Translations under genes and position numbers: made by a program
Virus record (IMG/VR): IMGVR_UViG_3300034092_003453
Location: 1 to 28,356 of that record
Direction: 5' to 3' (one strand)
DNA length: 28,356 bases
From: a virus
In this document: positions 1,552 through 25,381 of the stretch, one piece after another
How the letters are laid out: each line of letters opens with the position of its first letter
Position numbering within the stretch: position 1 is the first letter of the stretch
The notes under the pieces: generated by a model
Told to the model about the DNA's origin: nothing
What the model saw: only the letters and a program-made list of their open reading frames with translations
Database searches by the model: none

Positions 1552-1774
1552 GATGTGTGTAGGTTATTTGTTTTGGGTGCGGGCTCGGCAGAGTTATAGC
1601 CAACCCGCTAGGTTGGTTGATTGGTAGTGTCGTCTGGCCATCCACTAGGTGAATGTCGTAACGACTTGTCTCTCTGCGGTGTGTTGAGTCCGGTCTCACG
1701 CGAACCGTTCGATGTTAAGCAGACATCGTGCGCTAATGAACCTCTTGCCGGATACATAATGAAAAGCAAGGCCG

Positions 1775-3043
1775 TTATAGCAATCCGGCTTCGCGCATTC
1801 TAACTGTGATGGCTTCCTCAAACGGGAGTCTTGCCGTTGCGCTTGTTGGCTGAACTGCAGTTGCGGCCCCGCCGCCAGCCGCTGGAGTAGCCCCGCGCAT
1901 CCGTGTAATCAGTGCGTTGGCTTCCGCGAGTTGGGTTTTGGCTGTTTGAAGTGCGCCAACTAGCAAGGGGTGAGCAGCGGCTCTGGCCATAATTCCTGCC
2001 TGACTTGGCGTGTCGAAGGCCTCGTAAGTATATTTTGTAGGGAACGATTGTGCGTCGGAGAGTGCAGCGTTCCACGCATCGTTTCCGTCCACAGGCTTCA
2101 ACTCTGCCGCGGCTGCCAGCTCGTTCCAGAACTTTGGAACTGCTGCCTTATACTCGTCTGCGATTCGGGACTGCTCTGCTTGAGTTTGCTCCTGTTGTCT
2201 GGCGGTCAGCTGGCTTAGCGCGGCCTGAGCATTGGACATCAACGCGGTTTTCTTGTCGGCCAAAGCGTCAAACGCATCTACCTGACGGAAGAACTTCTGG
2301 CGGTCGTATTCGGCCATCTCAGACGCTACCTCTGAGATGAGCTTAGTTCTATCTTCAGTATTACTCGCCACTACTTTAGCTACCTGTGCTGGGTCCATGC
2401 CGTATCGCTTCACGATAGTCCCCATCTCTGCCTCCACTACAGCAAGCGGTTCACCTATCTCTTTACGGAAGACCTCAGACTTCTCTAACCGCGTGGCCGC
2501 CAGCTCTTGGTCGGCTTCGGAGAATCGTTTGCGGAGAGTTTCTGCCTCCAGCTTTACCTGCTCATAGTCCGGTGGAGCCGTAGGTGCTTTAGCTGCCGCT
2601 TCCTGTGCGGCCTTGAGTTGTGCCTCAAGCTCCACGGTCTTTGATGCGGTGGCTTCCAGCTCTTTTACCTTTCGCTTATAGTCACGAAGTTCATACGTCT
2701 TCTTAGTGAAGGCCTCGCGTTGGTCACGAGTCATCTTCTCTGTGGCGCTGCTAATCTCGCTCTTCAGAGAGTCCTCTTCCAAGTCAGCGGACTGAGGCGT
2801 CTTCACTTCCGCCGGAGGTGCTGGTGGCTCAACTTGCTTAGGGTGGGGGGTCGAGTCGGTCAGCAAGTCTAGGTCCCGCATCCGGCGAATGATTGCCTCT
2901 TCCGTGCTTTCTCCGGCCGCCGTCGAGGACGGAGTAGTCGTCGGGTTTGGGATTACTATCCCTGACTCAGCGGGCGTCGCTGAAGGAGAGTTGGCAGGAG
3001 TAGGAGCGACTACGGTCGCGGTCAGTGTAGGATTCTCTGGCAT
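1775..3043 (-). CDS. Scaffold-like coiled-coil head protein
   Basis: 422 codons from ATG 3043. The N-terminal 45 residues are rich in Pro, Thr, Ser and Ala. Residues about 95-200 are strongly charged and heptad-like (KVKELEATASKTVELEAQLK), predicting a long coiled coil. The C-terminal third is Ala-rich and helical. This composition and the position between portal and capsid genes are typical of capsid scaffolding proteins, which line the procapsid interior and are lost on maturation. A short motif appears twice: EEAIIRRMRDLDLL at residues 48-61 and EEAITVRMREAGLL at the extreme C-terminus (409-422), which is where scaffolds usually bind capsid protein. No protease motif is seen. The start lies in an AT-rich leader (AGAATAATATG) without Shine-Dalgarno. 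Confidence 0.6.
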   Translation of the reverse strand: MPENPTLTATVVAPTPANSPSATPAESGIVIPNPTTTPSSTAAGESTEEAIIRRMRDLDLLTDSTPHPKQVEPPAPPAEVKTPQSADLEEDSLKSEISSATEKMTRDQREAFTKKTYELRDYKRKVKELEATASKTVELEAQLKAAQEAAAKAPTAPPDYEQVKLEAETLRKRFSEADQELAATRLEKSEVFRKEIGEPLAVVEAEMGTIVKRYGMDPAQVAKVVASNTEDRTKLISEVASEMAEYDRQKFFRQVDAFDALADKKTALMSNAQAALSQLTARQQEQTQAEQSRIADEYKAAVPKFWNELAAAAELKPVDGNDAWNAALSDAQSFPTKYTYEAFDTPSQAGIMARAAAHPLLVGALQTAKTQLAEANALITRMRGATPAAGGGAATAVQPTSATARLPFEEAITVRMREAGLL

Positions 3044-3054
3044 ATTATTCTAAG

Positions 3055-3375
3055 TTATTTGGTTTGAGTTAAAGGACGAATGGCTAAGTCTGATTGAAGT
3101 GTCCCCCACTCAGCCAAAGTAGGTGATACGATTTGTTCAGGGGAGGCGAGCTTTTCCAAAAACCGAAGGGCTCCATACACGCCAGCCCTGTGTGCGTATC
3201 GACGGGCGAGCTCGCTATTAACTTCGGCAGTTATCAATCCCCCGTCACGGTCGGGGACCGTGGGTTCGTGTGCCTGCCTGATTACGTCAAACGCTGATTG
3301 CAATACGGGGTCAGCCAATAGCTCGGCCAGCCGCTGTTGATTGTGCGGGTTTACTTTCCACTTTGTTAGTGTCAT
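3055..3375 (-). CDS. Small phage protein of unknown function
   Basis: 106 codons from ATG 3375, leader CTTAATATATG. The protein is soluble with no cysteine. The N-terminal half (MTLTKWKVNPHNQQRLAELL) and the middle (ARRYAHRAGVYGALRFLEKL) look helical. It sits between the portal and the scaffold-like gene, with 3 and 11 nt gaps, so it is almost certainly cotranscribed with the head genes. Small proteins in this slot can be head-completion or assembly factors, but I see no family signature and assign none. Confidence 0.6.
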   Translation of the reverse strand: MTLTKWKVNPHNQQRLAELLADPVLQSAFDVIRQAHEPTVPDRDGGLITAEVNSELARRYAHRAGVYGALRFLEKLASPEQIVSPTLAEWGTLQSDLAIRPLTQTK

Positions 3376-3378
3376 ATA

Positions 3379-5766: not shown

Positions 5767-5771
5767 GGTAG

Positions 5772-6035
5772 TTAGCAATTCCAGGCTCGGAGACTCTTGT
5801 TGATGCGGCTGTCTGGGTCGCGGGCAGTCTTTGCGCTGGTAAGCTTTTCTTTCATACCTGTCATTCGCGCACAGAAGGACTCCTTGCGTTTGCCTCCCTC
5901 AGGCTGTGGTGGCTTCAGCCCAGGCTTACCAGGATTTGCGGCGTTGTATGATGCGCGGCCCTTAGCGTTCAGGCCTCCGGATTCGGATTTGCCTTCCTTG
6001 CGGGTCCACGCGGGTGTGCTATGCTTTTTGTCCAT
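5772..6035 (-). CDS. DUF6321-type small basic phage protein
   Basis: 87 codons from ATG 6035. The sequence is very basic, with segments STPAWTRKEGKSESGGLNAK, KRKESFCARMTGMKEKLTSA and a C-terminal SRINKSLRAWNC. I recognise this pattern as the small conserved family named DUF6321, found mainly in phages and often near portal or terminase genes; its function is not known. The start overlaps the end of the upstream glycosyltransferase-like gene by 17 nt, and the portal start follows 5 nt after its stop, so the three are translated from one message. The charge suggests nucleic acid contact, but that is inference. Confidence 0.75.
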   Translation of the reverse strand: MDKKHSTPAWTRKEGKSESGGLNAKGRASYNAANPGKPGLKPPQPEGGKRKESFCARMTGMKEKLTSAKTARDPDSRINKSLRAWNC

Positions 6036-6933
6036 GTCGTTGTTTGGATTTGGATTTTAGTTTACGAGGGGGAATAATCTCCACCACTGGGAAAGACTCT
6101 GCGGAAGTATCCAGCGGGATTGGCGCAGGCTGCGGAGCCATGCGCTCTTTCAAGAGCAACTTGAGCAGGCTTAAGTCTTTGCACCCATGCACGACCGCGA
6201 TTGTTTCGTTCACTACGTGCGGCAGTGAAAAGCCTGCCTGTCCAGCGAGACGGCCTTCGGTTGGGTCGCAATGTATCTTCCCGTCCGCTTCTCTCCGATA
6301 GTTACAGGTGAGCCAGTTGTGCTGAATCAAGTTGGTGTGCTTGGCGAAGTTGCCGTCAACAATATCGGCCTGCATCGCCACGTCGAACGCAATCACACGG
6401 CCGTTCATTGGGTCGCGGGATTGTATGTGCGCTTGCGTGTATTGAAATAGGCGGGAGGGATAGACTCCAGTTCCGACCAAGTGCTGCCCCGCTGGGATTC
6501 GTTCGTTCTGTGGCATCAGGAGCCTCCAGCTCTGCTGTAGAACCCCAACAAACGGGCGGTCTGCGCTTGCATACTCGGCCTCGATGCGCTTCAGCCAATC
6601 GGAAGCCAGTGGAGTATTGTCAGGCTCAAAGAAATACCACGGAAGTTCGGGGAAGAGTTCTGGGGCAGCTGCTGCGGCAGCTCGGAACATTGCGTTGGGA
6701 CCAGCGGGCCATCCCTTATCGACTGAGGGGTCCAGCGAAGCGTATACCGCAGATACTGACTTGAACGCCTTCTCTAGTATTGCCCGCACCATTCTCCATT
6801 CCTCTGGGGGAATCTCAGGGTCGACCACAAGGAGCGCAGGAAAGTCCTGGACCCCTCCGAGGTCCACTATCCATCCGGCAATCGCCTTAGCTAACGTCAA
6901 ATCGAAGTTTGAGATCGGGTATACTAGCAGCAC
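6019..6933 (-). CDS. Glycosyltransferase-like protein in the head module
   Basis: 304 codons from a GTG at 6933. Residues about 73-82 (KGWPAGPNAM) and 99-114 (WYFFEPDNTPLASDWL) resemble the nucleotide-sugar and metal-binding region of GT-A type glycosyltransferases, with EPDN in the place of the usual DXD. A later NGRVIAFDVAMQADIV and HNWLTCNYR are compatible with the family. The basic tail (KLKSKSKQRHGQ) is unusual. The frame stays open upstream for about 20 codons into the terminase gene and reads like protein, but has no ATG, GTG or TTG, so the true start could be a rare codon overlapping the terminase stop. A glycosyltransferase between terminase and portal would fit glycosylation of a virion protein. 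The activity is inferred from motifs only. Confidence 0.6.
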   Translation of the reverse strand: MLLVYPISNFDLTLAKAIAGWIVDLGGVQDFPALLVVDPEIPPEEWRMVRAILEKAFKSVSAVYASLDPSVDKGWPAGPNAMFRAAAAAAPELFPELPWYFFEPDNTPLASDWLKRIEAEYASADRPFVGVLQQSWRLLMPQNERIPAGQHLVGTGVYPSRLFQYTQAHIQSRDPMNGRVIAFDVAMQADIVDGNFAKHTNLIQHNWLTCNYRREADGKIHCDPTEGRLAGQAGFSLPHVVNETIAVVHGCKDLSLLKLLLKERMAPQPAPIPLDTSAESFPVVEIIPPRKLKSKSKQRHGQKA

Positions 6934-6964
6934 AACAGACCATTCACTGGGGTTACCCCATTTG

Positions 6965-8797
6965 TCAATGCAGTAATCTAGTGTTTCCCCACCCAGACAA
7001 GGCGATGACCGGAGCTTTATACGCCCTGCGCAGGGGCAGGACGGGGGTGCTTATCTCGGCTAGGCCGTCCGAATCCGTCGTAGTTGTGGACGTTTGCGAT
7101 ACGCTATCTGTGTCTCGAACAAACATTTTCCACTTTTTTCGTTGAGTGTTGGACCTGACTTGGGCCGTGGCTGGCTTAAACTTCCCAACTGTCCGGCATA
7201 CATCTAGTAGAATGAACGCGGCGTCAGCTAAATCAGGTGATTTGCCTGTCCGCTTTCGCACTTCCTTTTTGGCTTCTACCTTTATGAGCACGGAGTCTCC
7301 TCGCTTGACGGTGCCACGCCGACGCGACGTCATCTCTATTGCCAGCTCACTGCTGATGCCCTTGAGCTGGCCTCCTCGCAGATAATCGCTGCCTACGTCC
7401 CAAAGCTCAGACACGCGGTCTGCGTATCGTGTAGTAGCGGGCACCCTGTCTAACCCAACTTCATACTCGCTGGGTCCTCCACCAAAATACACGCCTTTAA
7501 CGTCGGACGACCACGCTTCAGACAGAATATCGCCAAACGCCTGGCCTGCTCCGGTCTGATCATATCCTGCGTGCGAGGGCGTGACCCCGCGCCTGACACA
7601 CTCGTCTCTATACTTCTTAGCAATCTGCTGATTCCGTGGAGTCTTCGAGTCCTTGTCCTCGGCGAGCAAGATGTTGTCTGTGTATAGCAAGGTGACGAGC
7701 CCCTCTCTCGACATCCCGAGCAGCCCGAACTGCGCCCTCGTAGCATCTCCGTCGGAGGTGAACCCCAGGTCCAGTCCAGCATACGGCTCGGGTGTTGAGG
7801 CCCACTGAACTTTACTGGAGTCCGCTTCGGTGGCCGCGAGATCGACTTCCGTGTAGATTCCTTCGGACGAACCTTCAGGACACCAGAACGCTCGACACAT
7901 GCGCCAGTATGCGAGAGAGTTTTCCCCGTTCTGTTTCTTCGCCGTCTCAATCTTCTTCAGCGTCGGCAAAAACGGGTAGGTGTCTCTGCCCTCCAGAATG
8001 TTTGGCGAAAGCTCGGAGTCAAACCGAATGGCATACCCGAGTTCAGTCTCCCATTCGGTGTCGCGAACCGAGATAGATTTCCAACCAGCCTTGGGTTTCG
8101 ATAGGGCTCCGTGTGGGTCAAAAATAGAGTTTGGGTTTCCGATTCCGATAAACTGGAAGAACGGGTTCTGCGACAAGTTACTAGCTCCAGCCTCGACAAG
8201 TGCGGGCGACAACTCAGGCAACTCATCGCCGATCAAAAACACGCGCTGGTTCTTAATACCGATCAGTTTCCCGATACTCTCCTTCTCTTTGCGGGCATCA
8301 CCAGCAATCAGAGCGAGCCCCGCCCGATGATTGACCTTCCCATCCCCGAGGTCGCAGCGTATGATCCCGAGCGAGTCGACGGGCTTTCCCCACAGCTTTA
8401 CGGATGCGTGCTGCCACAAGTCCATAATTGCGCCCCAGATACGCTTCCGAGAATCCTTCAACGAAGTGGACGTCACCAAGACCATCGTTGTTTGCGGGGC
8501 CGCTAGGAAATTCACTATGCTCCACAGAGCGTAGGTCTCGGTCTTGGATGCCGACGCGGGGCCGGACACCGCGAGGTATTGCCAGCGACATGATTCTTCC
8601 ACCATCTTCTCCGACCACGGGTTTCGGACGAAACCCCTTGTGCTGCCTTCCGGCCACAGGATAGAGACGACGTTCCAAAAGTGTTCACTCTTTCCGAGGC
8701 CTCCGTCTTCGACAGATAGCCCGTGCAAGAAACACGCTAGCTCAATCTCCAACTGTCGGTTAAACGGCCACTCCCGACGATACATCAGCTTCGACAT
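6965..8797 (-). CDS. terL: Terminase large subunit (packaging ATPase-nuclease)
   Basis: 610 codons from ATG 8797. This is the motor that cuts concatemeric DNA and pumps it into the procapsid through the portal. The Walker A-like loop is GPASASKTET (about residues 79-88), Walker B is VFLIGDE (186-192), and IGIGNPNS (217-224) matches the coupling motif. The RNase H-fold nuclease follows: GLDLGF with Asp343 as first metal ligand, a middle acidic site near HAGYDQTGAGQAFGD, and SPDLADAAFILLD near residue 553. About 50 extra residues follow the nuclease. No small terminase gene is visible; it may be elsewhere or unrecognisable. The leader (AAAATATAATTTATG) has no Shine-Dalgarno. It is the first gene of the leftward unit, back to back with the integrase. 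Confidence 0.88.
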   Translation of the reverse strand: MSKLMYRREWPFNRQLEIELACFLHGLSVEDGGLGKSEHFWNVVSILWPEGSTRGFVRNPWSEKMVEESCRWQYLAVSGPASASKTETYALWSIVNFLAAPQTTMVLVTSTSLKDSRKRIWGAIMDLWQHASVKLWGKPVDSLGIIRCDLGDGKVNHRAGLALIAGDARKEKESIGKLIGIKNQRVFLIGDELPELSPALVEAGASNLSQNPFFQFIGIGNPNSIFDPHGALSKPKAGWKSISVRDTEWETELGYAIRFDSELSPNILEGRDTYPFLPTLKKIETAKKQNGENSLAYWRMCRAFWCPEGSSEGIYTEVDLAATEADSSKVQWASTPEPYAGLDLGFTSDGDATRAQFGLLGMSREGLVTLLYTDNILLAEDKDSKTPRNQQIAKKYRDECVRRGVTPSHAGYDQTGAGQAFGDILSEAWSSDVKGVYFGGGPSEYEVGLDRVPATTRYADRVSELWDVGSDYLRGGQLKGISSELAIEMTSRRRGTVKRGDSVLIKVEAKKEVRKRTGKSPDLADAAFILLDVCRTVGKFKPATAQVRSNTQRKKWKMFVRDTDSVSQTSTTTTDSDGLAEISTPVLPLRRAYKAPVIALSGWGNTRLLH

Positions 8798-8852: not shown

Positions 8853-9836
8853 ATGACAACACAACCCATAATCCGCACTAAACATAAAGTAAAAGTCAGC
8901 TCGCCGCAAGACGTAGCAGTAGCCTCAACCGTGTCAAGTTTTCTAGCGAAGTTCGGGGCAGACCGCTTGATGTCAATTCTTGCGGAATCGGTTTCGCCTG
9001 CGTCTGGTCCGAAGATTTCTGTCGCCAACGCTATCTCAATATTTCTAGATGCGCTAGGCCGCAACGGAGTTTCGCTGAGACATATCCGTTCGACCCGCAG
9101 TCACCTCAAGCGATTTGACGCTACGTTTACTGGCTATCTAACCGACATTAACGCGCTTGATCTTGACGGCTACCTTCAAGGCGTGAGCTATAATCAAAAG
9201 ACGCGCCTTAACCATCGCGTCACTTTGGTGTCACTGTTTAACTTTGCGAAACGAAAGTGCTGGCTCAGTAGCACTACCGCTCATGCAGCCGAGCTCACCG
9301 AACGACCTAAGGTCCCCGTTTCGGACCCGCAAGTTTTCACGCCAGAAGAGATGCTGAAGCTGTTGAGGGCTGCTCATAGTGAGCCGCTGTCTTCATACCT
9401 GGTGATCGCGGGATTTGCTGGTGTGCGTCGCGCCGAAATAGAGCGTATGCACTGGTCCGACTGGCAGCCTGAGAATAATTCTTTAGTGCTGCCGACCGCG
9501 ATTACAAAAACTAGCCGCCGCCGCATCGTTAATCTAGAGCCGAACGTAGGCGCCTGGCTCACAAAGCTGAGCGAAAGGTGGAATCCGGAGGACAGGATTT
9601 GTCCCATCTCAATCGGCAACCAGATTTTGATTACCTCAAAGGCAGCGGGAGTCCAATGGCGCGACAATGCGCTGAGGCATAGCTACGTCAGCTATCACTT
9701 AGAGCTGCACAAAAATGCTAGCATGACCTCGAAGAACGCTGGTCATGACGTGCGGACTCTGGAGACTTCTTATTTGCAGCTCGTGCCGTTCGCCGCAGCT
9801 AAGGCGTGGTTTAATCTTAGCCCCGCTGATCTTTAA
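8853..9836 (+). CDS. int: Tyrosine recombinase / phage integrase
   Basis: 327 codons from ATG 8853. It has an N-terminal SAM-like core-binding domain (about residues 55-150) and a C-terminal catalytic domain. Catalytic residues I can place are Arg192 (GVRRAEIERM), Lys219 (TAITKTSRRR), Arg275 (DNALRHSYVSY), His298 (NAGHDVRTLE) and the nucleophile Tyr307 (LETSYLQL). The first residue of box II, usually His, is Asn272 here, a substitution I associate with several environmental integrases. The enzyme would integrate the phage or resolve dimers by cutting and rejoining DNA through a covalent tyrosine link. No attachment site or repressor is evident nearby, so lysogeny is possible but not shown. 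It is divergent from the terminase gene. Confidence 0.9.
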   Translation: MTTQPIIRTKHKVKVSSPQDVAVASTVSSFLAKFGADRLMSILAESVSPASGPKISVANAISIFLDALGRNGVSLRHIRSTRSHLKRFDATFTGYLTDINALDLDGYLQGVSYNQKTRLNHRVTLVSLFNFAKRKCWLSSTTAHAAELTERPKVPVSDPQVFTPEEMLKLLRAAHSEPLSSYLVIAGFAGVRRAEIERMHWSDWQPENNSLVLPTAITKTSRRRIVNLEPNVGAWLTKLSERWNPEDRICPISIGNQILITSKAAGVQWRDNALRHSYVSYHLELHKNASMTSKNAGHDVRTLETSYLQLVPFAAAKAWFNLSPADL

Positions 9837-12781: not shown

Positions 12782-12996
12782 GAACGATTGTGCATGTGAA
12801 TCAACACGCGGTAAAGTCAAACCGCAAGACGGGCAAGCGCGACCCCGTGCTCACAATCAAGACCTACAAGAGTAACACCTACGCGCACGAAGTTGAATTG
12901 ACAGGCCCGTCGAAAGTTGTATACTCGCCAGACAAGCCGCTGCCATGCGGAGCCGTCTGCTGGATTGAATCACAACACCCTGTCAAAATTAAATGA
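12778..12996 (+). CDS. Small conserved protein of unknown function
   Basis: 72 codons from ATG 12778, overlapping the methyltransferase stop by ATGA. The pattern MRTIVHVNQHAVKSNRKTG, then VLTIKTYKSNTYAHEVE, then GPSKVVYSPDKPLPCGAVCW, is one I recall from small proteins of unknown function in bacteria and phages. It is beta-rich and basic, with two Cys near the end. ATGA coupling to the helicase gene places it in the early operon. Confidence 0.7.
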   Translation: MRTIVHVNQHAVKSNRKTGKRDPVLTIKTYKSNTYAHEVELTGPSKVVYSPDKPLPCGAVCWIESQHPVKIK

Positions 12997-15641
12997 GCGT
13001 GACGCTTTTACCCTATCAGGTCCCAGCCGCCGACGCGCTGGAAGCCGCGCTGCGAAAGCACCGCGTGGCGTTAGATCTGTCGGACTGCGGAACAGGAAAA
13101 ACCATTGTAGCCTGCGAAGTCTTGAAACGGCTTAACGCGTCACAGAACATTGTAGTGTGCCCGAAGGTCGTAGTCCCTACATGGCTCCGCTGGGCCAAAG
13201 AAATGGGCGTTGCTGTGACGGCCCTCACCTATGAAAAGCTGCGGCTTGGAAAGACGGGGCTGGGCTATTGGAGAAACAAAACCTTTCAGTGGACGGTTGC
13301 CGACGACGCAGTGATCGTGTTCGACGAGGCTCACCGTGTTGGCGGCCAGAATACGCAGAACTCACGCATGGCCCGTGACGCTGGCCCGTTCCACAAGCTA
13401 TTGTTGAGTGCCACCCTCGCTGAATCCCCACTGCAAATGCGGGCTATCGGTCATCTGACGGGCCTCACGACATGGGCAGACTGGTATGGCTGGTGTCTTC
13501 GTAACGGTTGCGGAAGACAGCACTGGGGCGGGCTCATCTTCCCTGCGTGGCCCACAGGCCGCGGCATGTCTGCCGACGAGAAGGAAGCCGTCCAAGCAAA
13601 GGTGCGTTCAGAAGTGCTGGCGTCGGTTAATTCATACCTGCTGCCAGATTTTGGTTACCGCGTGAAGATTTCAGACCTTGACGACGCATTTCCTGAAGGC
13701 GTCGTCACTGCGGACGCCTACGATATGGGCAACGAGCAGGAAATCATTGCTGCATACGACCAGCTTAATAAGGACATAGTTGCCGCGACGTCTGAGTTAG
13801 AGCGCGAACAGGCGGAGACCAGCGCATTGCAGATTATCGAGCGGGTCAAAGTGTCGGCCTTCGCAGACATGGCGCGGGACTTAATGGAGCAAGGGCAATC
13901 GGTAGTCATCGTCACGAACTTCCGCGCTTCTCTACAAGCCTTGTGCGAAGAGTTGAAGTGCGGCGGGGTCTACGGCGGGCAGAACGACGCCGAACGCGCC
14001 ACCGTAGTGGATGAGTTCCAAGCGAACACTACGCACTGCATCATCGTGAACATTCAAGCGGGCGGCGTCGGCCTGTCGTTACATGACCTGCACGGACAGC
14101 GGCAGCGCGTGATGTTAATCAGCCCGACATTCAGCAGCAAGAATCTGCGCCAATGTTTATTCCGAACACGTAGACAAGGCTCCCAATCTGCGGCGATTGC
14201 CCACATCGTGTATGCCGCAAACACTCCGGAAGAAGATGTTTGCGAACGCGTTGCGATAAAACTAAAGAACATCGACCTACTCAACGATGGTGACCTTTCG
14301 ATTTCTCCAAAAAAACATTTGAACAAAACCAACGCCACGTTGTCAGAGCCGAGCAACCAAGTTATTATGACATGTCCACAAACACCTACAAGCCAGTCCC
14401 CCTCGCCGAGCACGCCAGCCGAACCCTTGCCAAACGATACCGTGAAGTCAGAGGCTACTTCTACGAAAACGGGAAGCTCTACGAAGAAACCCTCACGAAA
14501 GAAATCTCCCGAGACTACGTCTGGACTACCGACGGTGTCATCGGCAATAGAAGTCTCAGAAAACCGAAAGCACGCAAAGCACAGCCCGAGCAGCCTAAAA
14601 TATAAGCTGGAGTGCCCAGGCTGGCTCAACGAACAGTCTAATGAGCCTAACGTGTGGGCAGATCGCGGCACTCGCGGTCACGCTGCTGTAGAAGTCATGA
14701 GCAGCGCAGGCCTCGAAGACGATCCCAACTTGAAGTCGGCGGTAGATATGTGCATCGCATATGTTCGCTCGCTGCTAAACTCCATCCCAGGCAAGACGCA
14801 AACACTGCGCGAAGTGAAGCTCAAGGTCCTCGACCAGTATGGGCACGCGGACTTGGTGCTGCTGTGCGAAGACGGCACCGCCCACCTGCTCGACTGGAAA
14901 TTCGCGCACAACCTCTACAAAGCGGACGCGCCCCAGTTCTGGGCCTACTCGCTCGGCGTGTTCGATGGCTGGCCTGTGAAGTCTGTGGAAGTCCATGTGC
15001 TGCACCCTTGGCTGAACTCCATCAGCAAACAGAACTTCACCCGAGACGGCGACTATCTGACGTTGCTTGGGAAGGTTCGTCGAATCATTGCGCGTGCCAC
15101 GGCCTGCGACCCTAAGGACTTTACACTCAACTCGGGCTGCACCTATTGTGCCCGTGCTGGGACGTGCCCCGCGCTGGCAGCAACAGCCGCCACGATTGCA
15201 ACACGCTACGATTCTCAATTCCAACTGCCGGACGGGAGCCTGCACGGTAGCGAAATACGGGACCCAGAAATACTGGGCCGCTTGTTGGAGCTCGCTCCGA
15301 TTATCGAGAAAGCAACGGCGGGTTGGAGGAACGCTGCGCTCAACTTGTGGCAACAAGACGGCGTGCCGATTCCTGGATTCTCCCTCATGGAGCGGAACGG
15401 CTCCCGTAAAATCACATCACCCATCGTGGCCTACCAACTTTTCCTTGACAAGGGCGGCAAGGCAGAAGACTATGCACGCGTCGCAGATGTTCCAATGGGT
15501 GAACTCGAAGATTTGTTTGCATCACTTGCTCCGAAAGGCAGCAAGGGTGCAGCGAAGCAGGAACTGAATGACCTGTTACTTGATAGAGATGCAATCTCTG
15601 TCGGTAAATCATCATTCTTTTTGAAGAGAAACAAACAATAA
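12993..15641 (+). CDS. SF2 helicase fused in frame to a Cas4/RecB-like PD-(D/E)XK nuclease
   Basis: One uninterrupted frame of 882 codons, start ATGA-coupled. Residues 1 to about 455 are a complete SF2 helicase: GTGKT (33-37), DEAH (111-114), SAT (139-141), NIQAGGVGLSLHDL (motif V) and LRQCLFRTRRQG (motif VI). Residues about 530-882 are a nuclease in the DUF2800/Cas4 style: KHSPSSLKYKLECPGW, then GHADLVLL and HLLDWKFA for the metal site, with one early Cys (in ECPGW) and three late ones (CTYCARAGTC), the 1+3 arrangement of Fe-S nucleases such as Cas4 and AddB. The linker (about 459-525) is Ser/Thr/Pro/Lys-rich, and another gene lies in a different frame there. The nuclease may instead start separately, for example at GTG 14535. 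The pair would process DNA ends in recombination or replication. Confidence 0.8.
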   Translation: MSVTLLPYQVPAADALEAALRKHRVALDLSDCGTGKTIVACEVLKRLNASQNIVVCPKVVVPTWLRWAKEMGVAVTALTYEKLRLGKTGLGYWRNKTFQWTVADDAVIVFDEAHRVGGQNTQNSRMARDAGPFHKLLLSATLAESPLQMRAIGHLTGLTTWADWYGWCLRNGCGRQHWGGLIFPAWPTGRGMSADEKEAVQAKVRSEVLASVNSYLLPDFGYRVKISDLDDAFPEGVVTADAYDMGNEQEIIAAYDQLNKDIVAATSELEREQAETSALQIIERVKVSAFADMARDLMEQGQSVVIVTNFRASLQALCEELKCGGVYGGQNDAERATVVDEFQANTTHCIIVNIQAGGVGLSLHDLHGQRQRVMLISPTFSSKNLRQCLFRTRRQGSQSAAIAHIVYAANTPEEDVCERVAIKLKNIDLLNDGDLSISPKKHLNKTNATLSEPSNQVIMTCPQTPTSQSPSPSTPAEPLPNDTVKSEATSTKTGSSTKKPSRKKSPETTSGLPTVSSAIEVSENRKHAKHSPSSLKYKLECPGWLNEQSNEPNVWADRGTRGHAAVEVMSSAGLEDDPNLKSAVDMCIAYVRSLLNSIPGKTQTLREVKLKVLDQYGHADLVLLCEDGTAHLLDWKFAHNLYKADAPQFWAYSLGVFDGWPVKSVEVHVLHPWLNSISKQNFTRDGDYLTLLGKVRRIIARATACDPKDFTLNSGCTYCARAGTCPALAATAATIATRYDSQFQLPDGSLHGSEIRDPEILGRLLELAPIIEKATAGWRNAALNLWQQDGVPIPGFSLMERNGSRKITSPIVAYQLFLDKGGKAEDYARVADVPMGELEDLFASLAPKGSKGAAKQELNDLLLDRDAISVGKSSFFLKRNKQ
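14372..14605 (+). CDS. 77-codon gene inside the helicase-nuclease linker, other frame
   Basis: ATG 14372 to TAA 14605, in a different frame from the 882-codon ORF. The peptide (MSTNTYKPVPLAEHASRTLA, then VRGYFYENGKLYEETLTKEI, basic tail KPKARKAQPEQPKI) has a balanced composition with six Tyr, one Phe and two internal acidic clusters. The codon pattern supports it: all six Tyr are TAC, Phe is TTC, and third positions are C-rich, while the other frame over the same bases gives only low-complexity Ser/Thr/Pro/Lys. It ends about 20 codons into the nuclease domain, as overlapping phage genes often do. Function unknown. It is either a true gene between helicase and nuclease genes or an overprinted one. 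Confidence 0.6.
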   Translation: MSTNTYKPVPLAEHASRTLAKRYREVRGYFYENGKLYEETLTKEISRDYVWTTDGVIGNRSLRKPKARKAQPEQPKI

Positions 15642-17745: not shown

Positions 17746-18104
17746 GAACTCGCCAACCTAGTGTGCTCGTCGTCAACACGTGGCAGCCTCACGGGAGTCG
17801 TAAGTTCTACGCGACGCACGACCCAAAGCAGTGCTTCCCGAATCCCTGCTGCGTGCATCGCCCGAGTGAGCACCACATGAAAGACTGGCCGCAGAACTAC
17901 CGCGACGACACTGGAGTGACGGAGCGCGTTTGTGTGCACGGCGTTGGGCATCCTGACCCTGACCAGCCTTGGCCGACGGACGACGTGCGTTGGATGCACG
18001 GCTGCTGTGGCTGCTGCGCTGTGCCGTCGAAGGAGCCGGAACAACCGATAGACAACTCAATCGCGCTGATTGCTGCGATAGTCGGAGGGGCCGCTGCTGT
18101 ATGA
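17742..18104 (+). CDS. Cys/His-rich, probably metal-binding small protein
   Basis: 120 codons, ATGA-coupled to both neighbours. The centre is dense in Cys and His: QCFPNPCCVHRPSEHHMKDW, then ERVCVHGVGHPDPD, then WMHGCCGCC. Segments of this type (PSEHHM followed by a Trp and an HGVGHPDPD box) recur in small phage and metagenomic proteins without known function. The spacing would suit one or two zinc sites. The C-terminal 20 residues (NSIALIAAIVGGAAAV) are hydrophobic and could be a weak membrane anchor. Confidence 0.6.
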   Translation: MRTRQPSVLVVNTWQPHGSRKFYATHDPKQCFPNPCCVHRPSEHHMKDWPQNYRDDTGVTERVCVHGVGHPDPDQPWPTDDVRWMHGCCGCCAVPSKEPEQPIDNSIALIAAIVGGAAAV

Positions 18105-20500
18105 TCGTCGCAATCGATTTCGAGTCTTTCTACAGCAAGGACGTGTCCATCACGGTCCAAGGCATCTTCCATTACCTGCGTCACCCCGAGCAGGACATCT
18201 ACATGGTGTCTGTCGTGTCCGACACGGGCGTCCGTTTCTGCGGGAACCCGCGGGACTTCGACTGGTCCTCCATCGACGGCGCTACGTGGCTCTCTCATAA
18301 CGCGGCATTTGATAGCGCGGTGTATGAAAGGCTGCAAGAACTTGACCCGCTATGGTATACTGCGAAGCCGTCTGAATGGCATTGCACCGCAGACCTCGCT
18401 GCTTACTTGGGCTACCCGCGTTCGCTTAAAGAAGCGTGCAAGCACCTTCTTAACCTCGACCTTAGCAAAGACACCCGTGATAAAATGAAGGGCAAACGCT
18501 GGGAGTCCATGAGCGAAGACTTCCAGAAAGAAGTCACCGACTACGCGATGCGAGACTCTGAGTATTGCCTACAGTTGTGGCAGCAGCACAGTCACAAGTG
18601 GCCGCAATGGGAGCGCGAGCTAAGCGTGCTGACCCGCACGATGGCTGATGAGGGGGTCGCTGTAGATAAACCATATTTGGAAGAATGCGTTGGGAACCTT
18701 CGCAGACTCCTGTGGGAAGCCGACAAGCAAATCCCGTGGGCTCAGTCAGGTCCAGCATTAAGTTACAAGAAGTTGTGTGAGCAATGTAGGTCCGCTGGTA
18801 TCAAGCCGCCGCCATCACTGGCGATGGACGACGAGATGTGCGCAGCGTGGGAAGAAGAGTTTGGAGAAAAGTATCCATGGGTTTTTGCGATGCGGACGAA
18901 ACGTAGGGCAAATACTTTACTCAAGAAGTTTGAGGCGTTACTTCAGCGCATACGTGAGGACGGCCGCGTCTCAATGCCCACTAAATATTGTGGCGCTCAC
19001 ACCAGACGGTGGTCAGGCGACTCCGGCATAAATGCGCAGAACATGAGCCGAGAAGCCATGCTCGAAGACGAGATGAAACACTTCAAGATTAGTGACCACG
19101 GCGTAGAAATGCGGGCATCCATAGTTGCACCAGCGGGCCGCAAGCTCATCGCTTCGGACTTATCTCAAATCGAGCCCCGAGTATTGGCCGTGCTAAGCGG
19201 CAACACCCGTATGGTCGAACTGCTGCGAACCGGAATCGATATATACGAAGCACACGCGAGAGACACGATGGGCTACGATAGACCAGAGAAGCTTAAAGCC
19301 ATGGCGCACGTCCCAGAGTTCGAGCTGATGCGTCGTCTCGCCAAGGCCCGCGTTCTCGGACTGGGTTTCCAGTGCGGCTGGCACAAATTCGTGACCTTCG
19401 CCAAGACAACGCTCGGAAGTCCGGACGCATTCAACGCAATCTTTGGGGCGCCCATCAAGCCGAGGCAGCTAGAGGCGTTTACTGAAGCCCTCATTGCCCG
19501 CAGAGACCCCGTCTTGCTGGCCGAATGGAAGCGTTTGGATGAGTTTACCCAGCGGACTTGGGTCAATTCGTGGGTTCAAGTCACGGATTTTAGGGAGAAG
19601 AACCCGCATACGGTAGCCCTTTGGCGCAAATTGCAGGCCTTAATCGAGCGGTCAGTGGGGGAGGACATGGTGGTTAATCTGCCTTCCGGCAACAAGCTGA
19701 CCTACCATGGGGTTCACACGACCCCTGGCAAGACGGCCTCGGATGGCAAAGGCTACGCTTGTCACCTCAGTCGCATGGGTCGGATGAACCGAGTGCACAT
19801 TTACGGCGGACTAGTGACGGAGAACTGTCTGGCCGGAGATACCGAAATCCTGACGGATAACCGTGGATGGGTTCGTCTGGACTCTCTTTCCGCAGCAGAG
19901 AAAGTGTGGGACGGTGTGGAATTTGTGTCCCATGATGGGCTTCTTGACCAAGGAGTGCAATCCACCATAGACTGCCAGGGAGTCGACGCCACCCCCGACC
20001 ATCTCTTCCTAGTAAATGGGGAGTGGCTCTGCGCTAACACAGTTGCATGTTTGGAACAACCGCCGCTCGGACGTGCCTCAAGACTTCATAGAGTTAGCGC
20101 GAGCAGCGGGGATCAAGCGATCCACGTTGGCCTACCGCCTCACTCTAGGGATACCGTGGGAACAAATACTCAACACTCCCGTCAGCCTATCCAACAAGTT
20201 TACGACATCCTCAACTGCGGCCCCCGCCACCAGTTTGTTGTCCGAGGACGCACTGGGAAACGCCTAACCGCGCACAACTGCGTGCAAGCAACTGCGCGTG
20301 ATGTGTTTGCCACAGGCCTGCTACGAATTGCAAAGGCTGGCCACTCGCTAATCTTGCAGACGCATGACGAAGCCGTGCCTGAAGTGGACGAAGCGTTAGA
20401 CAAGCAAGCAATTGTCGATCTCATGACGGTCGTGCCTGACTGGATGCCAAGTCTGCCCCTCGCCGCGGAAGCCGCGGAAGGAAAGTCCTACGCGATTTAA
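18101..20500 (+). CDS. polA: Family A DNA polymerase with 3'-5' exonuclease, intein-containing
   Basis: 799 codons from ATG 18101; an upstream ATG at 17969 in the same frame would overlap the previous gene and is unlikely. Proofreading motifs are IDFES (Asp6, Glu8), LSHNAAFD (Asp71) and YAMRD (Tyr148, Asp152). Polymerase motif A is KLIASDLSQIEPR (Asp353), motif B lies in RLAKARVLGLGFQCG (Arg412, Lys415) with LG where FG is usual, and motif C is LQTHDEAVPEV (His755, Asp756). Between B and C, residues 576-726 are an intein. Without it the polymerase is about 648 residues, normal for phage enzymes of this type lacking a 5' nuclease domain. It is the main replicative polymerase of the phage. ATGA coupling precedes it. 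Confidence 0.9.
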   Translation: MIVAIDFESFYSKDVSITVQGIFHYLRHPEQDIYMVSVVSDTGVRFCGNPRDFDWSSIDGATWLSHNAAFDSAVYERLQELDPLWYTAKPSEWHCTADLAAYLGYPRSLKEACKHLLNLDLSKDTRDKMKGKRWESMSEDFQKEVTDYAMRDSEYCLQLWQQHSHKWPQWERELSVLTRTMADEGVAVDKPYLEECVGNLRRLLWEADKQIPWAQSGPALSYKKLCEQCRSAGIKPPPSLAMDDEMCAAWEEEFGEKYPWVFAMRTKRRANTLLKKFEALLQRIREDGRVSMPTKYCGAHTRRWSGDSGINAQNMSREAMLEDEMKHFKISDHGVEMRASIVAPAGRKLIASDLSQIEPRVLAVLSGNTRMVELLRTGIDIYEAHARDTMGYDRPEKLKAMAHVPEFELMRRLAKARVLGLGFQCGWHKFVTFAKTTLGSPDAFNAIFGAPIKPRQLEAFTEALIARRDPVLLAEWKRLDEFTQRTWVNSWVQVTDFREKNPHTVALWRKLQALIERSVGEDMVVNLPSGNKLTYHGVHTTPGKTASDGKGYACHLSRMGRMNRVHIYGGLVTENCLAGDTEILTDNRGWVRLDSLSAAEKVWDGVEFVSHDGLLDQGVQSTIDCQGVDATPDHLFLVNGEWLCANTVACLEQPPLGRASRLHRVSASSGDQAIHVGLPPHSRDTVGTNTQHSRQPIQQVYDILNCGPRHQFVVRGRTGKRLTAHNCVQATARDVFATGLLRIAKAGHSLILQTHDEAVPEVDEALDKQAIVDLMTVVPDWMPSLPLAAEAAEGKSYAI
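19826..20278 (+). other. Mini-intein inside the DNA polymerase
   Basis: 151 codons, from Cys576 to Asn726 of the polymerase frame, flanked by GGLVTEN before and CVQATARD after. Block A is CLAGDTEILTDNRGW, block B is GVDATPDHLFLVNGEW with the T-x-x-H motif, block F is VYDILNCGPRHQFVVRG, and block G is RLTAHN followed by Cys727. All residues needed for protein splicing (Cys1, block B His, penultimate His, last Asn, Cys+1) are present. There is no room for a LAGLIDADG or HNH nuclease. The central part (about 20050-20185) reads as low-quality sequence in this frame, while another frame holds a helix-turn-helix module. Insertion just before motif C makes polymerase activity depend on splicing. Confidence 0.85.
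20076..20189 (+). pseudogene. Out-of-frame helix-turn-helix remnant within the intein
   Basis: In the frame shifted by one relative to the polymerase, the bases read PQDFIELARAAGIKRSTLAY and then RLTLGIPWEQILNTPVSL. This matches the DNA-binding HTH tail of phage HNH endonucleases and inteins (AxxAGIxxSTLxxRLxxG-W-xExxLxTPV). It is not translated in the polymerase frame. An 83-codon ORF (20016-20267) covers it but has no upstream signals. The simplest reading is two compensating frame changes, one near 20044-20075 and one near 20186-20202, that scrambled a former homing module while keeping the splicing ends in frame. Confidence 0.6.
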
Positions 20501-20872: not shown

Positions 20873-21498
20873 CCTGCAACGATACCCGAGAAAGCCACAC
20901 ACTAATGACAGTCCGACGCACAAACGTCGTCGAATACCGAGATGGTTCCGTAAGGTTTCTAGCCGGACTCACAGTCGATGCCGACGGCGCGCCACGCGCT
21001 TACGGCCCCGCTGGGACCCAGCCGCTGGACTACCTAGCTAATGCGGGGAGTCCAGGCCGCTGGTGGGGCATCGCGACCGATAAGTCGGGCAAGCCGTTCA
21101 TCCAAAAAGAACATGACCCAGCACCTGGATACTACGTCAGCACAACGAGCTACCAGCGGAGTGGCTTCGCCATCTGCGACCCGCGTCGTTACGTAGACAG
21201 CGAGAAAGTTCCCTTCGTTGTCGTGCCTGCCCCGTTGCGCAAGATGGTAAAGGGAATCGTCCTTGGATGTGCTGCGACCATCACGCGGGGCTCTTCGGGT
21301 GAGTCGATAGCCTGCGTTGTTGCCGACTTCGGTCCGGCTAAACATCTAGGCGAAGCAAGTATTGCCGCAGCGCGTATGCTTGAAGTTCCCTGCAATCCTA
21401 AAACAGGCGGTTCAGATCGGCAGGACTTTACCTATACAATTTTCCCAGGCATCGCCGCTGTTATCAACGGCGAAACCTTCAAACTGATTCCAGCGTAA
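20869..21498 (+). CDS. GH75 chitosanase-like glycoside hydrolase
   Basis: 209 codons from ATG 20869 (ATGA overlap); ATG 20905 is an alternative start. The order of conserved blocks fits glycoside hydrolase family 75: LTVDADGAPRAYGP, LDYLANAGSPGRWWGI, DPAPGYYVSTTSY, DPRRYVDSEKVPFVVVP, then CVVADFGPAKHLGEASIAAA, where the Asp and Glu correspond to the catalytic acids of fungal-type chitosanases. No signal peptide is visible, so export would need a holin or the protein may act on an intracellular or capsid-bound substrate. It could be a cell-wall lytic enzyme, but its position among replication genes is unusual. Family assignment is by memory of motifs. Confidence 0.6.
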   Translation: MTCNDTRESHTLMTVRRTNVVEYRDGSVRFLAGLTVDADGAPRAYGPAGTQPLDYLANAGSPGRWWGIATDKSGKPFIQKEHDPAPGYYVSTTSYQRSGFAICDPRRYVDSEKVPFVVVPAPLRKMVKGIVLGCAATITRGSSGESIACVVADFGPAKHLGEASIAAARMLEVPCNPKTGGSDRQDFTYTIFPGIAAVINGETFKLIPA

Positions 21499-21998
21499 TG
21501 CCAATCTTTAACGCTATTGCAGGTGTGGCGAACAACGGGGTGATTGGCTCGCGGAACACCATCCCTTGGAACGAGCCAGCCGACATGCGGAACTTTAAGA
21601 TGCTGACAAATGGCAGTTCGGTCATAATGGGCAGAAAAACATTCGAGTCACTGGGGCATCACCCGTTGATTAATCGAATGAACTACGTTATTTCTAGCAC
21701 TCCAGACGCTGGCTGGCCAGTGCAGGAGAACCTCGTGTGGCTCAATAGCGCGGTGCTGAAGAACCCCTCGCTGATGCCGTCTGGCTGGGTAATCGGCGGG
21801 GCGCAGCTCTACGAGACGCTGTTGCCCTACTGTAAGCACTTGTGGCTCACGCGAATCGAGTGCGAGCCTGAAGGCGACGTATTTTTTCCGCGCCTCGGCG
21901 TCGAGTGGCGGCTCGCGAGTTCCAAAGAGATTAGCCCGACGGCTACGTTGGAAATCTGGTGGAACTCCCGCGTGAAAGCATTCAGCATTCCCGAATAA
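21498..21998 (+). CDS. folA: Dihydrofolate reductase
   Basis: 166 codons, start in a TAATG overlap. DHFR motifs are clear: IAGVANNGVIGSRNTIPWN, the acidic substrate-binding residue in EPADMRNFK, the NADPH-binding VIMGRKTFESLG, VIGGAQLYETLLP and RIECEPEGDVFFP. The length is that of the bacterial enzyme. It reduces dihydrofolate to tetrahydrofolate with NADPH and supports thymidylate synthesis during phage replication. No thymidylate synthase is in the window, so the gene either backs up the host enzyme or has a partner elsewhere. In T4 the DHFR is also a baseplate part; nothing here shows that. Confidence 0.9.
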   Translation: MPIFNAIAGVANNGVIGSRNTIPWNEPADMRNFKMLTNGSSVIMGRKTFESLGHHPLINRMNYVISSTPDAGWPVQENLVWLNSAVLKNPSLMPSGWVIGGAQLYETLLPYCKHLWLTRIECEPEGDVFFPRLGVEWRLASSKEISPTATLEIWWNSRVKAFSIPE

Positions 21999-22364: not shown

Positions 22365-24572
22365 ATGAATCTGCCTGAACTGCCTGAACTTTTCTGCATT
22401 ACAAACCGCCTCGACCAAATAGCCACACGGCTGCGCCCTTGGGACCACGTGCCAGCCAAAGGTAGCGTGCCTGAGTCAGCGTTCCTCTCCAAAATTGCGT
22501 TCGATGCCTACGCCAAGAGCGGCGACACCAAGCATGTCTTCTATTATGCTGTCGAGCCCTTGAATCCGTCGATGCGCCCAGGCAAGCAGAACCCTCCGGT
22601 GTCACTTCACGGTCTGATCGCAGACTACGACGTCAAAGGCGGTAAACATATTACCGAAGCCGAGGTCCAATCAATTACAAAGTCCTTGCCGGAGCACTTA
22701 CTTCCTACTTTTGCGCACGCAACCTTCAGCGGGGGTGCTCGACTGGTCTGGTTGTTCGACCGCCCCGTGGCTTGTGAGCTGGAAGTTGTCAGGACTGCGT
22801 TCTTGGACATGGCCTCGAAGCGATTGACCCTACAGAACCTGCTTCCTGGCTGGGACAAGCCCGCTTTCCACGCCTACCAGACCACTTACGACGTCGGCAC
22901 ACGCGACTGGTCTCGTATTGGCGCCCCGTTGCCCGCGAGTTTGCTCGAACAGTGGCTGATTGAGGCAAGTTTGTTGCTCAAGCCAGGCAGCATCAAGACC
23001 GACGGCGTAGAAATCCCCATTGACGAGGTCTCAAAGAAGGTTTCCGAGGTCTTCCCCAACCGCTGGGTGGGTGAATTTGATATTGGCCGACGCGGCGTGG
23101 TGTTTTTCGACCCCGTTTCCGTGAATCCGACTGCTGCTATCGTGACGGCGACGGGCGTGCTGTGCTTTGGACAGGCAAAATGTCACTACTCATGGGCGGA
23201 CATCTTCGGCAAGGCATGGGTAGAGGGCTTTGTGCAGGACAAACTAGGCGACGTTACCAAAGACATATGGTCAGATGGCAAGAACTATTGGTATGCCGAC
23301 TTGCGAGGCGTGATGCTGCCACACAATCGTGAGACTGCGGTGTTGCACCTCCGCGCTATGGGCCTCTCAGCTGAGAAAGCATCTGGCCTGAGCGAAGTGG
23401 AGAAGGCTCTTCAGCACATCAATCAAGCGAAGTGGGTAGACACGGTCGCGCCGCTGGTTTTCGATACTCGCTCCGTTGTAGACGTGCAGGGCAAGCGCAC
23501 GCTGAACACCAGCAGAATCAAAGTGATGCAGCCGTCGGACGACGCTGGGGTCTGGGGCCCCGAAGGCAACTTCCCTTGGCTATCAAAGCTCTTGGACTCG
23601 GCGTTTGAACCCACCGTCGGCGATAACCCTACGGACCAGCTTGACCATTTTCTAGCGTGGTTCGCTCACTTCTATAAAGGCGCGCTATCCGGCACGCAGT
23701 CAAAAGGACACGCCCTGTTTTTGTGCGGCCCAGCAGAAACAGCGAAGAGCTTCCTCTCGAATATCATCGTTGGTAGCGCAGTTGGGGGCGGCTTCCCAGC
23801 GTCCGACTTCATCCAAGGCCGCACCGAGTTTAACAAAGGTTTGTCCGAGTCGGGCTTGTGGCTGATGGACGACAGCAGCCCCGCCGAGGGCAATGATGCC
23901 GATGCACGGAAGTTCGCCAGTCGTTTAAAATCACTGGTCGTTAACGGAACCTTCGTCGTTCGAGCCCTATACAGAGACGGCGTCGACGTCTCCATGGCTG
24001 GCCGCAGGATCATCCTGACAGTAAACAACGACCCGCACTCCATGCGTATGCTGCCAACTTTGGATGGTAGCATCGCGGACAAGGTGATGATGCTCTTGGC
24101 GAAGCGACCAGAGGTCGACTTCTCTAGGGACTACTCCAAGAACGAAGCCAAAGTGTTGTCGGAGCTCCCCTGTTTTCTGCGGTGGTTGCTCGACCATGAG
24201 CCGCCAAAGCGCGTAGTCGAACACCGCGGTCGGCTGTTCTGCAAGCCTTACATCCATGAGAGCCTACGCCTAGGCAGTAGCGTAGCCAACGGTGTTACTG
24301 ACCTGCTCCAAATCATGGACGTTTACTTCAGGTCAATCACTGACCCGCTCTCAAGCTCAGGCAGCGAGGCCCTAATCGGGACTGCCGCGGACTTGCTCGG
24401 GAAGCTTAACCAGTGTGATGCCACCAGAGCCCTAGCCAATAAAGAGACGGTTCGGTCAGTCGGAAGGAAGCTCGGACTGCTGGCCTCTACCCACTCGGAC
24501 AGAGTGAGCAAGGCGCTCGGCCACAATGCGCAAGGGGCCACCAGCACATGGAGCATCCTACCCCCCGCTTAA
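22365..24572 (+). CDS. Primase-helicase: AEP-type primase fused to SF3/D5-like helicase
   Basis: 735 codons from ATG 22365, leader CTTTTTATATTTATG. The N-terminal 250 residues look like an archaeo-eukaryotic primase: LHGLIADYDVKGG (Asp87, Asp89 as metal ligands) and ATFSGGARLVWLFDRP (118-133). The C-terminal part is an SF3 helicase: Walker A CGPAETAKSF near 454-463, Walker B GLWLMDDSS near 497-505, and GRRIILTVNNDPHSMRML (sensor / motif C with Asn-Asn). It would unwind the fork and lay primers for the polymerase. A 61-nt gap upstream allows a separate weak promoter. AEP-SF3 fusion beside a family A polymerase is a workable replication set without a DnaB-type helicase. Confidence 0.8.
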   Translation: MNLPELPELFCITNRLDQIATRLRPWDHVPAKGSVPESAFLSKIAFDAYAKSGDTKHVFYYAVEPLNPSMRPGKQNPPVSLHGLIADYDVKGGKHITEAEVQSITKSLPEHLLPTFAHATFSGGARLVWLFDRPVACELEVVRTAFLDMASKRLTLQNLLPGWDKPAFHAYQTTYDVGTRDWSRIGAPLPASLLEQWLIEASLLLKPGSIKTDGVEIPIDEVSKKVSEVFPNRWVGEFDIGRRGVVFFDPVSVNPTAAIVTATGVLCFGQAKCHYSWADIFGKAWVEGFVQDKLGDVTKDIWSDGKNYWYADLRGVMLPHNRETAVLHLRAMGLSAEKASGLSEVEKALQHINQAKWVDTVAPLVFDTRSVVDVQGKRTLNTSRIKVMQPSDDAGVWGPEGNFPWLSKLLDSAFEPTVGDNPTDQLDHFLAWFAHFYKGALSGTQSKGHALFLCGPAETAKSFLSNIIVGSAVGGGFPASDFIQGRTEFNKGLSESGLWLMDDSSPAEGNDADARKFASRLKSLVVNGTFVVRALYRDGVDVSMAGRRIILTVNNDPHSMRMLPTLDGSIADKVMMLLAKRPEVDFSRDYSKNEAKVLSELPCFLRWLLDHEPPKRVVEHRGRLFCKPYIHESLRLGSSVANGVTDLLQIMDVYFRSITDPLSSSGSEALIGTAADLLGKLNQCDATRALANKETVRSVGRKLGLLASTHSDRVSKALGHNAQGATSTWSILPPA

Positions 24573-24574
24573 CC

Positions 24575-25381
24575 ATGAATGCTAACTCTTACGAAATCTA
24601 CAGGTCAGAAGCTGCCGAGTATCCCCTAGTTACTCCCGAAGAGGAGCGGCGGCTGGCAGTGAGAGTGCAAGCGGGGGACTCCGACGCACGAACGGTCCTG
24701 GTGAACGCAAATCTTAGAATCGTTTTGGCTCTGGTGCAGGACTACAAACAATTCGCGGTCCCAATCGAAGAGCTGGTGGCCGAGGGGAACCTCGGGCTAA
24801 TCGAAGCGGCGACGCGCTACGACGGCAGGGTAAGCTTCTGGCACTTTGCAAAAGTGATTGTTCATCGATACATCCAAAAGGCGATGGCTGCGCAGGGCTG
24901 GGCGGTGAGGGTGCCTGGCGAGGTTCACTACCAGATGCTGCAGCTGCGGAGGGAGTCCAACAGGCTCGAAGAGAAGACTGGTAATGAGCCAGACGACGAA
25001 GCTCTGGCGGAGAGCCTCGGCATCGCAGCACACAGGGTGTCCTCGCTGCGGGGTATAATGTCAACGGTCGCGAGTATTGGCACCTCTGAGGACGACGGGG
25101 CTGGCCTTCAACTGAGTGACGGCACTTACGAAAGTTCAGGCATGGATGAGGCTCGGTCTGACCGCCTCTATAATGTCAGGAAGCTGCTGGCTGGCCTGGA
25201 ACAGCGGGAGCAGTTGGTGCTCGGTGCGCGGTATGGGCTAAAGTCCGGCGAGCCGATGCGGTTGGAAGCTATTGGCGAGCGGCTGGGAGTGTCACGCCAA
25301 CGTGTGGAACAAATAATACAGGTTGCGGAACAAACGATTCGCGACTTAGTGCTGACTGCGAAGTCGGAGGTCCCGCTGTGA
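24575..25381 (+). CDS. Phage-encoded sigma-70-family RNA polymerase sigma factor
   Basis: 268 codons from ATG 24575, 2 nt after the previous stop; ATG 24548 overlaps the primase gene and is less likely. Region 1.2 is YRSEAAEYPLVTPEEERRLA with VNANLRIVLALVQDY, region 2 is EELVAEGNLGLIEAATRYDG and WHFAKVIVHRYIQKAM, region 3 follows with EPDDEALAESLGIAAHRV, and region 4 has REQLVLGARYGL and the HTH LEAIGERLGVSRQRVEQI. It is a full group 2/3 type factor, not an ECF. It would direct host RNA polymerase to phage promoters, plausibly for the leftward virion genes or the unit at 27.5 kb. The target promoters are not identified. Confidence 0.88.
   Translation: MNANSYEIYRSEAAEYPLVTPEEERRLAVRVQAGDSDARTVLVNANLRIVLALVQDYKQFAVPIEELVAEGNLGLIEAATRYDGRVSFWHFAKVIVHRYIQKAMAAQGWAVRVPGEVHYQMLQLRRESNRLEEKTGNEPDDEALAESLGIAAHRVSSLRGIMSTVASIGTSEDDGAGLQLSDGTYESSGMDEARSDRLYNVRKLLAGLEQREQLVLGARYGLKSGEPMRLEAIGERLGVSRQRVEQIIQVAEQTIRDLVLTAKSEVPL

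Follow-up and report, generated by a model that had tools for sequence, protein, structure and literature searches.

A mini-intein in a phage family-A DNA polymerase gene very probably descends from an intein with an overprinted HNH homing endonuclease gene

Introduction

The DNA polymerase gene of a viral contig of 28,356 bases (the whole stretch analysed, called here the window) contains a mini-intein whose middle reads unlike protein in the polymerase frame and as DNA-binding peptides in the +1 frame. The locus raises the question of how two reading frames came to carry meaning within one short element. A preliminary description proposed that a DNA-binding module had been scrambled by two compensating frame changes, or else that assembly indels were responsible. 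The analysis presented here leads to a different answer: the window very probably holds a splicing-competent-looking PolA mini-intein derived from an ancestor with an overprinted HNH homing gene, which was lost by a net deletion of about 516 nt. The features of the locus are as follows.

18101-20500, plus strand: phage family-A DNA polymerase, the extein host gene (open frame; DNA_pol_A E=2.5e-17; phrog_17 DNA polymerase E=4.6e-69)
19826-20278, plus strand: intein of 151 aa, Cys1 to Asn151, with the Cys+1 codon at 20279-20281 (splice blocks invariant in relatives; mini-intein fold)
19826-20053, plus strand: N-terminal splicing domain, blocks A and B, residues 1-76 (pLDDT; mismatches to the relative L020 peak at host third positions, 26/18/40)
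20054-20185, plus strand: disordered linker in the polymerase frame, residues ~77-120, mostly the shadow of the nested remnant (pLDDT ~48-66 over residues 81-120; indel-free alignment to the L020 nested region)
20186-20278, plus strand: C-terminal splicing domain, blocks F and G, residues 121-151 (pLDDT ~96-97 up to residue 150)
20016-20267, plus strand: +1-frame ORF of 83 codons (its ATG differs from the ancestral start and has no Shine-Dalgarno sequence)
20043-20210, plus strand: remnant of an HNH homing endonuclease, C-terminal HTH/DNA-binding tail, +1 frame (match to the L020 nested HNH)
20044-20065, plus strand: junction, located approximately, of a net deletion of ~516 nt with respect to L020 (nucleotide alignment offset -3 upstream and +513 downstream)

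Results

The polymerase intein of the window

The preliminary description had placed a mini-intein with intact splice motifs at 19826-20278, and all of the splice residues were indeed found in the polymerase frame. The residues of a class 1 Hint domain are present in full (C1, T56/H59 of the block-B TxxH, H150-N151, and C152), block F reads VYDILNCGPRHQFVV in the polymerase frame, and the insertion site is the conserved motif YGGLVTEN/CVQATARD, the slash marking the position of the intein. A Hint fold was recognized in the structure search, where the top PDB matches were mini-inteins such as DnaX (7cfv) and NpuDnaE (4kl5), with a Foldseek probability of 1.00. In the AlphaFold model the pLDDT is ~97 at residues 1-70 and ~96-97 at residues 121-150, drops to 81 in residues 71-80, and is only ~48-66 in the middle (residues ~81-120), in line with the earlier remark that this part is unlike protein. 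The mini-intein therefore looks splicing-competent, and from general knowledge of inteins its precursor would be expected to splice.

Elsewhere in the window are a helicase-exonuclease fusion ORF (12993-15641), an integrase (8853-9836), a dihydrofolate reductase (21498-21998), and a sigma factor (24548-25381); the phage has an integrase and replication genes of its own. Five large ORFs, located in 343-8797 (minus strand) and 22365-24572, had no PHROG match.

A remnant of an HNH gene in the +1 frame

The +1-frame peptides, ascribed in the preliminary description to an HTH of the type found in HNH tails, lie in the 83-codon ORF, and that assignment was borne out: by BLASTP the ORF matches the C terminus of the +1-frame HNH ORF of L020 with 58% identity over 53 aa (E=6e-22), a likeness that sequence statistics place far above chance. 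The remnant itself aligns with residues 156-210 of the L020 nested HNH (56% identity, E=3e-17). It was also recovered at E=8e-7 by a profile of 37 nested HNH proteins from which the window was excluded; six frames of 12 mini-inteins were scanned in that search, and the window matched in the +1 frame only. The rest of an HNH protein, namely the zinc and catalytic core parts, gave no further match anywhere in the window record, which thus has no HNH core, and a search of the +1 peptide against phage records matched nothing. Residues ~78-120 of the intein look meaningless in the polymerase frame because the DNA there is the 3' end of a +1-frame gene.

The nearest relatives of the window PolA are L048 (41%) and L020 (39%); no other exceeds about 28% identity over most of the protein. 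Both share the insertion site of the window and carry a +1 HNH; they came from the intein search, an extein search of IMG/VR for close polymerase relatives having found none. Aligned as DNA, the window and L020 are separated by a single large gap of net 516 nt, a multiple of 3, with zero frame-changing indels between the remnant and block F; the edges of the deletion and the order of events are approximate, since even the nearest relatives reach only 39-41% identity in the polymerase. Mismatches between the two, counted by host codon position, peak at the host third position in the N-intein (26/18/40), at the nested third position in the tail (26/17/10), and again at the host third position in the C-intein (6/3/11). 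The difference in phase between tail and flanks is significant (Fisher p=0.001). As judged from this alignment, the deletion took the nested start, the zinc and the HNH core, leaving the HTH tail; the ancestral nested start and Shine-Dalgarno region were lost with it. Given a single in-frame net deletion and the flip in substitution phase, two compensating frame changes become unnecessary.

Nested HNH genes in related inteins

Viral contigs and phage records were searched with the window intein, yielding 88 inteins with defined ends. By length they form two groups: 12 are mini-inteins of 114-180 aa, that of the window being one of them, and 76 have at least 261 aa. A nested same-strand ORF of at least 180 codons is present in 75 of the 76 longer inteins (75 of 88 overall), in the +1 frame in 55 and in the +2 frame in 20. 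These ORFs span 190-345 codons and overlie the unstructured intein middle. HNH endonuclease PHROGs, on which the HNH assignment rests, were matched by all 51 non-redundant +1 ORFs (best 3e-61) and all 19 of the +2 ORFs (best 2e-39), and by none of 45 polymerase-frame translations of the inteins. A complete HNH core of the PHROG 374/3377 type was found in 70/70 nested ORFs of the relatives, which share invariant Cys pairs, a YGGRGI-type motif, and conserved Arg and Asn residues. A Pfam scan of the nested ORFs returned no HNH, merely weak HTH or irrelevant matches; the best PDB sequence match was I-HmuI (E=0.14), and no meaningful match came from searching the PDB by fold with the nested HNH model.

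Nested HNH genes in the +1 frame occur, for example, in APSE-1 to APSE-7, Shewanella SFCi1, Caulobacter GB2A/RW/RLK/KcrB, Streptococcus Javan255, and Gardnerella AB1, and in the +2 frame in Pseudomonas MR14, Vibrio 97.13, EBPR siphovirus 2, and Jerseyvirus YMFM0293. The host genes include PolA, ResIII/DEAD helicases, and SNF2 helicases. The HNH homologues of large phages are free-standing. APSE-1 and a single APSE-2 record (DQ092617) were the only places where the nested gene was seen annotated, as P46; annotation pipelines omit it because it lies inside a larger ORF.

Several of these loci have features of their own. The cultured Jerseyvirus, Salmonella phage YMFM0293, has a gene annotated 'putative intein-containing DNA polymerase' (L104:495-3593) with the +2-frame HNH ORF unannotated. 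A 719-aa span in L021 (4003-4878 and 4656-5402) resembles two inteins in one polymerase; it has a PHROG-confirmed +2-frame HNH and, in the +1 frame, another long ORF. In the polymerases of L049, L057, and L071, a second C-terminal intein half, NCGPRHRFAANGKLVHNS-like in sequence, precedes the main intein by ~100 aa. An SNF2-type helicase (L008:1784-5206) combines an in-frame LAGLIDADG match with an intein bearing a +1 nested HNH, that is, two kinds of homing endonuclease within one gene, and a single ORF in L050 (1454-5551) contains uracil-DNA glycosylase and family-A polymerase domains together with an intein.

Selection on both frames and nested starts

Substitutions were counted in unbiased nucleotide alignments of 37 pairs, which share members so that about nine are disjoint. 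In the nested region of the +1 pairs, mismatches by host codon position were 2560/1049/844, with a nested third-position peak in 31 of 31 pairs; in the +2 pairs they were 139/473/254, with such a peak in 6 of 6. For these +1 pairs, the flanks that encode intein alone gave 370/258/942, a peak at the host third position. Host-frame stops over the nested genes numbered 0 in 68 genes, against ~442 expected from synonymous codon shuffling of the nested genes, while the third, unused frame had as many stops as expected under shuffling. L048 is the only gene with host-frame stops (5 against 6.9 expected). The nested third-position peak and the stop-free host frame, taken together, indicate at the sequence level that in the relatives the nested frame is under purifying selection and the host frame is kept open, as in an overlapping gene pair of which both members are selected. 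The nested protein is therefore conserved, and translation of the host frame has to pass across the region.

A Shine-Dalgarno sequence is located 4-11 bases 5' of the nested +1 start in 28 of 36 cases, compared with 51 of 476 internal NTG codons (p=2e-18), and the starts share the motif M/V-HHRA..D-x-TG. The enrichment lends indirect support to translation of the nested frame. The Shine-Dalgarno sits within conserved (K/E)GW intein codons, and part of the signal may be a by-product of these conserved K/E-G-W codons.

Decay and fates of the nested gene

In L048 (positions 4001-4963 of a record of 103,827 bases), the five host-frame stops, comprising TAG, TAA, and TGA, all lie inside the nested region. 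Codon reassignment as their explanation was ruled out, since all three stops occur, solely within that region. The HNH ORF is intact; its ATG overlaps the end of the N-intein, and its stop overlaps the ATG (ATGA) that opens the C-intein half, MKVYDILNAGPRRRF. L048 is probably a natural split intein, its three-gene polymerase being derived from the overlapping arrangement.

Two further mini-inteins keep different pieces of the HNH in the +1 frame, L017 the start and second half and L018 an N-terminal piece, which indicates that the nested gene has been lost through internal deletion more than once. Profile matches in the +2 frame of mini-inteins were weak and were rejected as remnants, being shadows of intein block B. 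In the 281-aa intein at L056:4072-4581, the +2 nested ORF is shortened to 170 codons and may be an overlapping-frame HNH pseudogene.

Discussion

Alternative explanations

The explanation from which this work set out, that two compensating indels, arising by mutation or by assembly error, shifted an originally in-frame HNH/HTH intein module out of frame, draws on the in-frame intein blocks that flank the +1 peptide. However, the L020 alignment, in which small indels are absent, rules out such a pair, and a complete HNH gene already stands at the same +1 offset to the polymerase in L020, L010-L012, L048, APSE-1, and the Caulobacter phages, among dozens of independent relatives in which the polymerase frame is open. 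Moreover, the substitution phase marks the +1 frame as the selected one. Neither the scrambled module nor the assembly indels proposed earlier thus survive, and this explanation retains practically no probability. The preliminary description had also held that relatives whose intein centre matched the present polymerase-frame sequence would speak against it; such a match was found for the retained part of the centre.

That the 83-codon remnant is still a gene, encoding an HTH-only DNA-binding protein that acts at the homing site as, for instance, a repressor or endonuclease blocker, is very unlikely. The ORF remains open, is 58% identical to a tail of the active type, and shows third-position bias in the +1 frame; yet that bias can be older than the deletion, a short remnant easily stays open, the more so under host-frame constraint, and the ancestral start has been deleted, the chance ATG at 20016 lacking a Shine-Dalgarno. 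It is very improbable, too, that the nuclease is made by programmed ribosomal frameshifting from the polymerase, fused to the N-intein, rather than by internal initiation. Some +2 ORFs do open back to the intein start, but most +1 nested frames have stops just 5' of the conserved NTG with its Shine-Dalgarno, the homologous HNHs of large phages stand alone, and in L048 the nuclease is intact although stops close the host frame.

A model for the element

The favoured explanation, loss of an overprinted HNH gene by deletion, builds on what the sequence comparisons establish, namely an intein of the splicing type, the homology of the remnant, its common frame with the relatives, the deletion, and selection on two frames in the relatives; to these we add splicing, internal initiation, and homing activity by inference. 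In the ancestral arrangement, a single mRNA would be read in two frames. Reading in the polymerase frame would give the polymerase with its intein; the nested region would amount to no more than an unstructured, stop-free linker within the Hint domain, and splicing would then remove the intein. Translation of the +1 frame would begin at an internal start, served by a Shine-Dalgarno of its own in the (K/E)GW motif, and would give a free-standing zinc-ribbon/HNH/HTH endonuclease, which would cut intein-less polymerase genes so that the entire element is copied in. In the window, the net deletion of ~516 nt, being a multiple of 3, would have left the polymerase open and the intein intact, with the HTH tail alone surviving and homing presumably dead; the element would persist because splicing is needed for the polymerase.

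On balance, we lean towards a broader generalization, that these loci represent a class of phage inteins that is widespread but mostly absent from annotations, its hosts being PolA and the SNF2 and ResIII-type helicases. Instead of an intein domain, the homing endonuclease would here be a separately translated, overprinted gene, mostly in the +1 and otherwise in the +2 frame; loss of the nested gene would give mini-inteins (the window, L017, L018), and breakage of the host frame would give natural split inteins (L048). Such an arrangement would explain the nonsense-looking middles of many phage inteins and would provide a clean double-coding system, where one frame needs merely to avoid stops. 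One polymerase clade holds a decay series of intact nested nuclease, split intein, and mini-intein, and with it the homing-cycle model can be tested, as can the origin of split inteins.

Comparison with known systems

In canonical inteins, such as PI-SceI and others, the LAGLIDADG or HNH endonuclease is an in-frame domain of the same polypeptide. The inteins described here resemble them in the combination of a Hint domain with a homing endonuclease, in insertion at a conserved active-site motif, and in decay to mini-inteins, and differ in that the nuclease has a gene of its own, which overlaps the intein in a different frame. In group I introns that carry HNH genes (I-HmuI, I-PfoP3I), the HNH is likewise a separate translation product, encoded in a self-removing element that interrupts a phage polymerase; their splicing, however, is of RNA, and the element need not stay open in the exon frame. 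APSE-1 (NC_000935) is alike in its PolA intein with a +1 HNH, P46 being listed as a separate CDS within the P45 polymerase, and unlike the window in that its nested gene is intact. As annotated, P46 has 140 aa and so falls short of the full +1 ORF of 222 codons; no paper discussing the P45/P46 arrangement was found in the literature searched.

An out-of-frame HNH insertion has been described in mycobacteriophage methylases, the ShiLan-type element (Arsenault et al. 2025, PMC11855218). There, too, the HNH gene lies in the other frame of an insertion free of host-frame stops, and homing is presumed; that element, however, has no intein or intron splicing domain, and its authors found no ribosome-binding site (PMC11855218). 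Here, in contrast, Hint splicing domains with splice residues flank the nested gene, and the nested starts of the relatives have Shine-Dalgarno sequences; the window differs further in that its HNH is dead. For overlapping reading frames, the same paper cites two works: a 2025 bioRxiv preprint by Gosselin, Arsenault and Gogarten (10.1101/2025.01.02.630785), which deals with actinobacteriophage inteins of 'non-canonical architecture', and the study 'Non-canonical inteins' (Gorbalenya 1998, PMC147447). Going by these citations, inteins with out-of-frame endonucleases may already have been described there; no other description was found in the literature searched. Out-of-frame HNH insertions as such are already known, and the intein version is a variant of them, of which the window is a decayed member.
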